Origin: Bifidobacterium mellis
GTDB lineage: Bacteria > Actinomycetota > Actinomycetes > Actinomycetales > Bifidobacteriaceae
DNA: 64,000 bases
Direction: 5' to 3'
Assembly (NCBI RefSeq): GCF_000967265.1
Contig: NZ_KQ033885.1
Coordinates: 1,221,538-1,285,537 of the forward strand
Shown: in pieces, positions 61,509-64,000 of the stretch
Layout of the letters: each line of letters opens with the position of its first letter
Numbering within the stretch: position 1 is the stretch's first letter
Program-made: the position numbers and the translations under genes
The notes under the pieces: generated by a model
What the model was told of the DNA's origin: nothing
What the model saw: the letters and a program-made list of their open reading frames with translations, nothing else
Databases searched by the model: none

Positions 61509-61581
61509 GTGGCTATAGCTCAGTCGGTAGAGCACCTGATTGTGGTTCAGGAGGTCGCGCGTTCGAGCCGCGTTAGCCACC
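61509..61581 (+). tRNA. tRNA-His (anticodon GTG)
   Basis: The cloverleaf folds completely: acceptor GTGGCTA/TAGCCAC with G at position -1 (61508) opposite C73, as tRNA-His requires; anticodon stem CCTGA/TCAGG around TTGTGGT; and T arm GCGCG-TTCGAGC-CGCGT. The 3' CCA is not fully encoded. It marks the left edge of the AT-rich region. Confidence 0.97.
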
Positions 61582-62741
61582 CTGCTAGCCGCTTACTGCT
61601 GATTAGTAGTTAATTAAAAATAGTGTCTTAAATAAGTCAAACCTGATTCTAAACTGAACTTGCTAGTTATTCATTTACCCCAATTTCAGGAAGTTAAATT
61701 CGAACATATACCAGATTGCTCGCGTATACTGGAATTACACATTTCTCCTACCGCACTCTTTTTAAGAAAGATTGCAAGGCTACAAATCAGTATACAACCG
61801 GCCAAATCAGTGGAATATAAATTCCGATAAAATCAGTAAAATAAAACTACCCCTGGAACCGATAGCTTGTATATAAAGATTACTTCCAACGAGCGATATA
61901 GGAATAAGGTCATATTGCTTTTTCGCGCATACAGTCACTACAGTGTTAAAGGATAAGGAATGACTCTATCATTAACAGCAAATCCTTTGAATCATAGCCG
62001 ATATTATCAATTAAGCAAAGAATCAAGCATAATAAAGTAATTATCGGTAGCTTCCCGGATAGGTAAGGAGCTAAAGAGCAAACGACGATAAACCGTGTAT
62101 GCGCATATTGCAGGCAGCTTTTTAATTGACTCACCACTAAACTACAAAACAAGATATTAATACGCTAAGACAGCATGTAAGTTGCTATGCTTATCTATAC
62201 GTGATAAGTAAGAATAAATCGTAGTCACCGTTAAAAAGTTGTACGTTTATCAAATAGGCAAACACAACCTCAAAGGAGACTCTGTTCTTTAACTATATGG
62301 AGCCTAGACTGAATTGAAGAACATTGTACAAGCTCTTGACCAAAGTGAAGAATCAGACTTTTCTCAAATCAATTTCTTCTATAGATCAGAAACCCTAAAA
62401 GAAAATAAAAGATGTGAGCAATTTGAAAAAGTGAGATATAAAATAAGATTTAACTCTAACCCTGTGAATTCCAAACACACGAAGCTTTACAGACGGAAGA
62501 TAAGCCAACTTAGAAGGCAACAAGGTTTTAAGACCAAATAATGTTCGAATCTATTGAACAGGACTAATTCTTTAAGAAGCCTTTTCAAGTTGTCTATTAC
62601 AACTATAGGTCTTTAAGAAAAGCTACCTAGCAATAAGCAATCACAACAAATTTACTTGTTTCTTATTTTGTTGGCTATCACACATATGAAAGTCCCCAAT
62701 TGGATTGGTGGCACAGCTTGTAAGGAGTATCATGTTTTTTT
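61582..62741. other. AT-rich region with no convincing gene (1.16 kb)
   Basis: Composition falls sharply right after the tRNA. Open frames at 61946-62152 (minus) and elsewhere lack ribosome sites. AAATCAGT occurs three times (61784, 61804, 61830). The stretch resembles decayed foreign DNA or a non-coding flank of a mobile island. A weak small open frame is listed separately. Confidence 0.6.
62314..62541 (+). CDS. Possible small basic protein, unrecognised
   Basis: The 75-codon frame (TTG start) encodes a lysine/arginine-rich peptide ending RRKISQLRRQQGFKTK. A good AAAGGAG lies at 62273 but too far from the start, and no family is recognised. It may be a chance frame in AT-rich DNA. Confidence 0.25.
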   Translation: MKNIVQALDQSEESDFSQINFFYRSETLKENKRCEQFEKVRYKIRFNSNPVNSKHTKLYRRKISQLRRQQGFKTK

Positions 62742-63797
62742 ATGTTAGGAAAATCAAGAGTAGAAGCCATAGATCTCTTTTGCGGTACTGGTGGTTTATC
62801 TCTTGGGCTCAAGCAAGGGGGGATTAACATTATTGCAGGTATTGATAATGCCGATGCCTGTGAATATCCATATAAGTATAATTTGAAAGCAAAATTCATC
62901 AAAGCCAGTGTAGCCGACATAACGGGTGCTGATCTAAATCAACTGTGGAACCAGTCTGAGATACGCTTACTTGCTGGATGCGCACCGTGTCAACCTTTCT
63001 CCAGCCAGAGACGCGGAGCTGACACCCGTAATGAAAAAGCATGGCCACTACTTAAAGAGTTCGGGAGATTAGTTGATGAAACACACCCGGAATTCGTCAC
63101 AATGGAAAATGTCCCAAACATCAGCTCTTCAATTGTATTCAATAATTTTGTTAATACTCTCAAATCTTTAGGATATACAGTTAAATACACGGTGTTATAT
63201 GGGCCTGACTATGGCCTCCCCCAAAAACGTAAAAGACTCGTCTTACTTGCAGGACTTGGCTACGAGGTGCAACTCCCTAAGCCAAAATATGAAAAAAACA
63301 ATTACCATACAGTATATGACGCAATTCATGATCTTCCGTCCCTTGCTTCTGGGGAGAGAGATCCAAACGATCCCTTGCACGCAGCAAGAAACCTTACACC
63401 ATTAAATTTGAAAAGACTACGCGCTTCCAGGCCTGGTGGTACGTGGTTGGACTGGCCAGAGGAGTTAAGATTAAACTGCCAAAAAACAGAAAAAGGGAAA
63501 ACCTTTAAGTCATTTTATGGGCGCATGCGTTGGGATGAGCCTTCTCCGACCATTACGACTCAGTTTTACAACCCCGGAGCTGGTCGGTTCACTCACCCAG
63601 AACAGGACCGATCATTGACTTTACGCGAAGCTTCTCGTTTACAAGGTTTCCCAGATTCTTATATCTTTAACGATCCAAATAAACCTATTGTTGTATCAAC
63701 AATAGGAAAATTGATAGGCAATGCGGTGCCTCCCGTATTTGGAGATGCAATTGCTCACGAGATTATTAAAGCACTAAATTCAAAGGAGAACAATTGA
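62742..63797 (+). CDS. DNA (cytosine-5-)-methyltransferase
   Basis: The 351-residue enzyme has all the main C5-methylase motifs: I IDLFCGTGGLSLGL (SAM binding), IV GCAPCQPFS with the catalytic Cys, VI MENVP, VIII QKRKRL, and IX/X RLQGFPDSYIF and GNAVPP. The variable region (about 200-270) sets the target, which cannot be read. GC content is well below the rest of the window. AAGGAG at 62722 is 4 bases from an ATG at 62732 that is out of frame by one T of a T7 run; the in-frame ATG at 62742 is 14 bases from it. The stop overlaps the next start (TTGA). Confidence 0.95.
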   Translation: MLGKSRVEAIDLFCGTGGLSLGLKQGGINIIAGIDNADACEYPYKYNLKAKFIKASVADITGADLNQLWNQSEIRLLAGCAPCQPFSSQRRGADTRNEKAWPLLKEFGRLVDETHPEFVTMENVPNISSSIVFNNFVNTLKSLGYTVKYTVLYGPDYGLPQKRKRLVLLAGLGYEVQLPKPKYEKNNYHTVYDAIHDLPSLASGERDPNDPLHAARNLTPLNLKRLRASRPGGTWLDWPEELRLNCQKTEKGKTFKSFYGRMRWDEPSPTITTQFYNPGAGRFTHPEQDRSLTLREASRLQGFPDSYIFNDPNKPIVVSTIGKLIGNAVPPVFGDAIAHEIIKALNSKENN

Positions 63798-64000
63798 GTG
63801 ATTCCCTCTATACATTAACTGTGGATATTGCAACTATTGATGCGTTAGGCAGAAATCTGTATTCAAACGCTGCCGCTGTGCTTACTGAATTTGTTGCAAA
63901 TTCTTGGGATGCCGACGCTAATTCAGTAAATATCCAATACGACCGCGATAATGATTTCATAAAGATATGTGATGATGGTTCGGGTATGGATTTGGAAAAA
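63794..64000 (+). CDS. GHKL ATPase of MutL/MORC type, 5' part
   Basis: The gene starts at a TTG at 63794 with AAAGGAG 6 bases upstream and overlaps the methylase stop by 4 bp; it runs off the right edge. The 69 residues seen contain the GHKL ATP-binding motifs: LTEFVANSWDADANSV (motif I, with the catalytic Glu and Asn in E-x-x-x-N) and IKICDDGSGMD (motif II, DxGxG). MORC-like GHKL ATPases are known to occur in bacterial restriction-modification loci. The rest of the protein, including any nuclease domain, is outside the window. Confidence 0.85.
   Translation, partial: MSDSLYTLTVDIATIDALGRNLYSNAAAVLTEFVANSWDADANSVNIQYDRDNDFIKICDDGSGMDLEK

Follow-up and report, generated by a model that had tools for sequence, protein, structure and literature searches.

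A tRNA-His-linked C5-methylase and GHKL-nuclease gene pair in Bifidobacterium mellis, a predicted Type II restriction-modification system of the BbrUII/HgiDII family

The DNA methylases M.HgiDII and M.BbrUII have been reported to recognise GTCGAC (PMC5867850; PMC5005818), and NCBIfam keeps a curated equivalog profile, NF050001, for the "BbrUII/HgiDII family restriction enzyme". A broader family, paraMORC3, was named by Iyer, Abhiman and Aravind in 2008 in a computational description (PMC2292703). For VcSduA, a related GHKL-nuclease protein, phage defence was lost when either an ATPase or a nuclease residue was mutated (PMC12137116). Here, we compare with these systems a gene pair of Bifidobacterium mellis, M and R, which a preliminary description had taken for a cytosine methylase coupled to a MORC/MutL-like GHKL ATPase.

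Both genes lie at the right end of the 64,000-nucleotide stretch that was analysed (the window; G000:C2:1221538-1285537), and since the window is located inside a 1.96-Mb contig, the sequence of the whole R gene was accessible. M encodes a C5-cytosine DNA methyltransferase of 351 aa at positions 62742 to 63797 of the forward strand (ATG to TGA). R begins on the same strand with a TTG codon (63794-63796); its 5' part runs to position 64000, and the complete gene, read past the window end on the same contig, codes for 691 aa (window-equivalent 63794-65869, L002:3331-5406). The stop of M and the start of R share the 4 bp TTGA (63794-63797), confirming the overlap noted earlier, and a Shine-Dalgarno-like AAAGGAG (63782-63788) is placed 5 nt ahead of the R start. 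Among 80 named relatives of R, 54 have a C5-MTase gene within 3 kb (upstream and on the same strand in 46/80), and the identical 4-bp overlap recurs in 17. The overlap in the host is thus not due to chance, and these data support the translational coupling that had been proposed for the pair. At the start of the operon (62722-62744), the ATG of M at 62742 is preceded by another ATG in a different reading frame, at 62732, and a run of 7 T lies between the two. A Shine-Dalgarno AAGGAG stands 4 nt from the first of these ATGs and 14 nt from the second. This arrangement may reflect an unusual start site or a slippage tract; a run of 7 T is short.

The R protein scored 727 bits against NF050001, for which the equivalog cutoff is 550, with a match covering residues 6-679 of the protein and positions 1-657 of the 659 in the profile. 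It also scored 856 bits against the PADLOC profile REase_II PDLC03419, and NF050001 was matched by all 57 relatives used for modelling. Relatives were found by an alignment-based search; a single-sequence search of genome contigs returned none. Judged from its profile matches, the system is one that has already been described as a family, and the locus appears as a well-supported added member. With Pfam, HATPase_c_3 alone was above its cutoff. The GHKL ATP-binding motifs are intact (E32xxxN36, D60xGxG and the lid G98xKGxGK, the last just beyond the window end); they read E32FVAN36, D60DGSGM and G98QKGIGK, in agreement with the GHKL motifs first seen in this frame. Near the C terminus are the nuclease residues R546, D548, E562 and K564 (D-ExK). 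The ATP-site residues and the C-terminal R-x-D...E-x-K are invariant in the alignment of 57 relatives and are kept in practically all members of the family.

The C-terminal 220 residues gave sub-threshold matches to Pfam SduA_C (Shedu) in 31 of the 57 relatives (best E value, 8e-6); NucS_C and a number of PDDEXK families ranked behind. The C-terminal fragment of R itself had no Pfam match, SduA_C (PF14082) included. A PDB sequence search with the nuclease domain yielded no match, and in a PDB fold search with its model no hit was significant; the top one was the small subunit of the restriction enzyme BspD6I (E value, 8e-3). For a 40%-identical relative, the AlphaFold2 model had a mean pLDDT of 83; about 430-490 columns of its GHKL-S5 part could be aligned to Hsp90 and MORC2 structures, at TM-scores of only about 0.33-0.5. 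On sequence grounds, the architecture of R is GHKL and S5 followed by a C-terminal PD-(D/E)XK nuclease, as in paraMORC3. Since this endonuclease sits in the same polypeptide as the ATPase, the missing endonuclease is accounted for within R, and the seemingly lone "MORC-like ATPase" is resolved as a predicted complete, single-chain restriction enzyme.

The M protein matches PF00145 (E value, 1.4e-57), exceeds the cutoff of TIGR00675, contains the motifs PCQ (C83), ENV, QxRxR and GNAVPP, and is the sole C5-MTase found in the host genome. C5-MTases generally vary most in their recognition region. Across 59 MTases of this group, however, that region (residues 185-290) showed a mean identity of 55% to the window methylase, versus 46% for the catalytic core, and a shared target is therefore likely. 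The M/R pair probably acts at GTCGAC, as extrapolated from its relatives. GTCGAC was not depleted in the 495 kb of host sequence sampled (L168-L187, L002, L003 and the window), with an observed/expected (O/E) ratio of 0.94; this is neutral on the site because a genome need not avoid sites that are methylated or were met recently, and GTCGAC remains the predicted site.

Methylases about 45-50% identical to M also occur on Rhodococcus and Phaeobacter plasmids (L230 and L231) with a different restriction partner, a MAE_28990/MAE_18760 HEPN-like nuclease together with a DUF262 protein. A Vsr mismatch endonuclease gene is found near R in 23 of the 80 named relatives. In the host, a lone Vsr gene is present at G000:C2:740995-741198 (L228), and this sole genomic copy was rejected as a partner of the pair because it lies about 543 kb from M.

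The pair is located next to a tRNA-His (GTG) gene identified with ARAGORN at 61509-61582 of the forward strand, which represents an integration hotspot. A low-GC insert starts at the tRNA 3' end, in line with the island reported before; its left part occupies 61583-64000, and its right junction was placed by sister-genome alignment at about 66610 (window-equivalent). The insert has a GC content of 33-45%, compared with 49-57% in the flanks, and about 1.1 kb to the left of the pair and 0.76 kb to the right are AT rich and without clear genes. Of 12 sister genomes, 10 have left-flank homology that stops precisely with the final base of tRNA-His, and in an eleventh it reaches one base further. 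In three sister genomes, the 3' end of tRNA-His is repeated 2-11 kb downstream as a copy of 43-44 bp, which is a sign of tRNA-targeted integration. In the host insert itself, neither a right-hand att repeat nor an integrase was found. The same slot is nearly empty in one sister genome (G004). In another (G019; L164:1357-5005), it holds an unrelated restriction-modification (RM) system, consisting of REase_II PDLC03488 and an 819-aa fused C5/Eco57I-type methylase, which suggests that defence systems of the genus tend to settle in this slot. Furthermore, the R family scored above cutoff in 2 of 189 genomes of the host's taxonomic family, the other one (G078) belonging to a different genus and encoding a 56%-identical R in a pair that has a further C5-MTase and a transposase-like ORF next to it. 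Given the evidence from the tRNA-His slot and the rarity of the family nearby, horizontal acquisition at this hotspot is the most likely origin of the pair. Elsewhere, an R and C5-MTase pair is carried by Rhizobium, Burkholderia, Campylobacter and haloarchaeal plasmids, and phage PhiR44_1 has one annotated "ParaMORC3" and Dcm.

Several other explanations were weighed. The preliminary description favoured a MORC/MutL-like ATPase and looked to the right for further subunits. A genuine prokaryotic MORC operon, its helicase or nuclease subunits lying beyond R, would agree with the GHKL-S5 fold and with MORC2 chains ranking among the best matches when the modelled relative was compared with PDB folds. 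By strict criteria, MORC proteins carry the motif GhXhhpXXRhl in S5 and have an SFII helicase in the operon in about 70% of cases. This motif was absent in all 66 family sequences, there was no Pfam MORC S5 match, and no SFII helicase was found in the operon. To the right of R, no helicase, second nuclease, HNH, PLD or Vsr gene appeared in the first 12 kb listed of the 36 kb past the window, where the 0.76-kb gap is followed by LysR, glyoxalase and other ordinary chromosomal genes, and the nuclease sits in the same chain as the ATPase. The downstream genes and the absent motif refute a MORC operon in its strict form, and we regard any such operon as highly improbable; a multisubunit system extending rightward was likewise rejected for the 12 kb listed. 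A plain Hsp90, MutL or histidine-kinase gene, which had been named as an outcome that would overturn the initial view, did not materialise either: R scored 40 bits against the Hsp90 equivalog (cutoff, 455) and 30 bits against that of MutL (cutoff, 180). R could instead act like Shedu or VcSduA, sensing the structure or ends of phage DNA rather than a sequence, with the methylase as an accessory or a separate marker. The Shedu-like C-terminal domain of the family points in this direction, as do the description of related paraMORC3/VcSduA proteins as single-protein defence (PMC12137116) and the 26 of 80 relatives without a nearby C5-MTase, 12 of which form one clade in DISARM operons. We nevertheless find it unlikely, since 17 of 19 members of the supported clade of R are MTase partnered, no part of the partner MTase is more conserved than its recognition domain, and the two family namesakes are known as site-specific RM systems.

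Two further alternatives accept an RM pair and concern its state or its target. Low GC content, the AT-rich stretches devoid of clear genes on both sides, the lack of an integrase and of a right-hand att repeat, and the stretched 14-nt spacing between the Shine-Dalgarno sequence and the ATG of M, with a 7-T run in between, would all suit a decaying, nonfunctional RM remnant in a tRNA-linked island. Yet, both ORFs are full length with every catalytic residue, and another genus of the taxonomic family has such a pair, with an R of 56% identity; we therefore doubt that the locus is such a remnant. As for the target, specificity may have changed within the family to a palindrome other than GTCGAC, given that the identity of M to distant relatives is only about 40-50%. 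In the host sample, depletion among 6-bp palindromes is strongest for CTCGAG (O/E, 0.33; z, -5.9), while GTCGAC is undepleted. However, CTCGAG is also low in two sister genomes lacking the system (O/E, 0.54-0.58), it was picked post hoc among 64 palindromes, and the family shows unusual conservation of the recognition domain. A different site thus has a small, though real, chance of being the right one.

Taken together, M and R very probably constitute a two-gene Type II RM operon of the BbrUII/HgiDII family with GTCGAC as the predicted site. The notion of a nonclassical restriction or anti-phage system is retained as far as restriction by a methylase and a GHKL ATPase is concerned, but not as an undescribed system, because the pair falls into a named Type II family. 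In the mechanism that we propose, M would mark and protect the recognition sites present in the host DNA, which are predicted to be GTCGAC. R would be translated second, after the methylase, by termination-reinitiation at its TTG, and such coupling offers a plausible way of keeping modification ahead of restriction. R would function as a single-chain endonuclease, the N-terminal GHKL-S5 module of which probably dimerises. The ATP-bound GHKL heads of the dimer probably close as a DNA clamp, as in MutL and Hsp90, and this closure would license the C-terminal Shedu-related PD-(D/E)XK domain, whereby unmodified incoming DNA would be cut. We infer that cleavage by R depends on ATP, and the system might have an anti-phage effect. 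It would also be a barrier to transformation of the host strain.

Relatives of R were also encountered inside class 1 DISARM operons. There are 12 of them, which form one group in the tree and have no C5-MTase of their own (L066, L067, L068, L069, L071, L073, L077, L078, L083, L093, L094 and L097). The GHKL enzyme is positioned between drmMI and drmA in these operons, the gene order at L078:30-13724 being drmD, drmMI, GHKL enzyme, drmA and drmB. Some of the operons contain extra genes, namely, those for a PifA-like KAP NTPase in L066-L068 and for an AspBHI-type methyl-directed REase in L093. In the literature searched here, we found nothing linking DISARM with GHKL or MORC proteins, and the occurrence of the enzyme within class 1 DISARM operons may exceed the locus itself in interest.

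Sequence comparison ties together the BbrUII/HgiDII Type II enzymes, the computationally defined paraMORC3 family and the GHKL-Shedu defence proteins, the apparent identity of which is not spelled out in the literature that we found. With the three groups tied in this way, the use of ATP by a Type II endonuclease becomes directly testable. We tentatively suggest, as a possibility that we would not yet favour, that one ATP-gated enzyme, in which a GHKL clamp licenses a Shedu-type nuclease and the self-markers are interchangeable, accounts for classical restriction at GTCGAC, for Shedu/paraMORC3 proteins that defend on their own and for the paraMORC3 protein of class 1 DISARM operons.

Compared with the known systems, the pair resembles prokaryotic MORC operons in having a GHKL-S5 ATPase in an RM context, but R differs in lacking the MORC motif and an SFII helicase and in being fused to its own nuclease. 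It departs from Shedu (SduA) in that R does not reach the gathering score of SduA_C, and its relatives stay below the threshold. VcSduA and the GHKL-Shedu proteins likewise combine an N-terminal GHKL ATPase and a C-terminal Shedu-like PD-(D/E)XK domain in one chain; VcSduA is described as a single-gene defence system (PMC12137116), whereas R is coupled to a putative cognate methylase. With BbrUII, the bifidobacterial namesake of the family from B. breve UCC2003, and with HgiDII, the pair shares the full-length, above-cutoff match to NF050001 and the adjacent C5-MTase, its kinship to these namesakes being read from profile matches; GTCGAC is the reported site for them and the predicted one for the host pair. 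Finally, it has in common with paraMORC3 the GHKL and S5 domains, the C-terminal nuclease of the restriction endonuclease fold and the linkage to a DNA methylase in RM operons (PMC2292703), and between paraMORC3 and R we see no essential difference.
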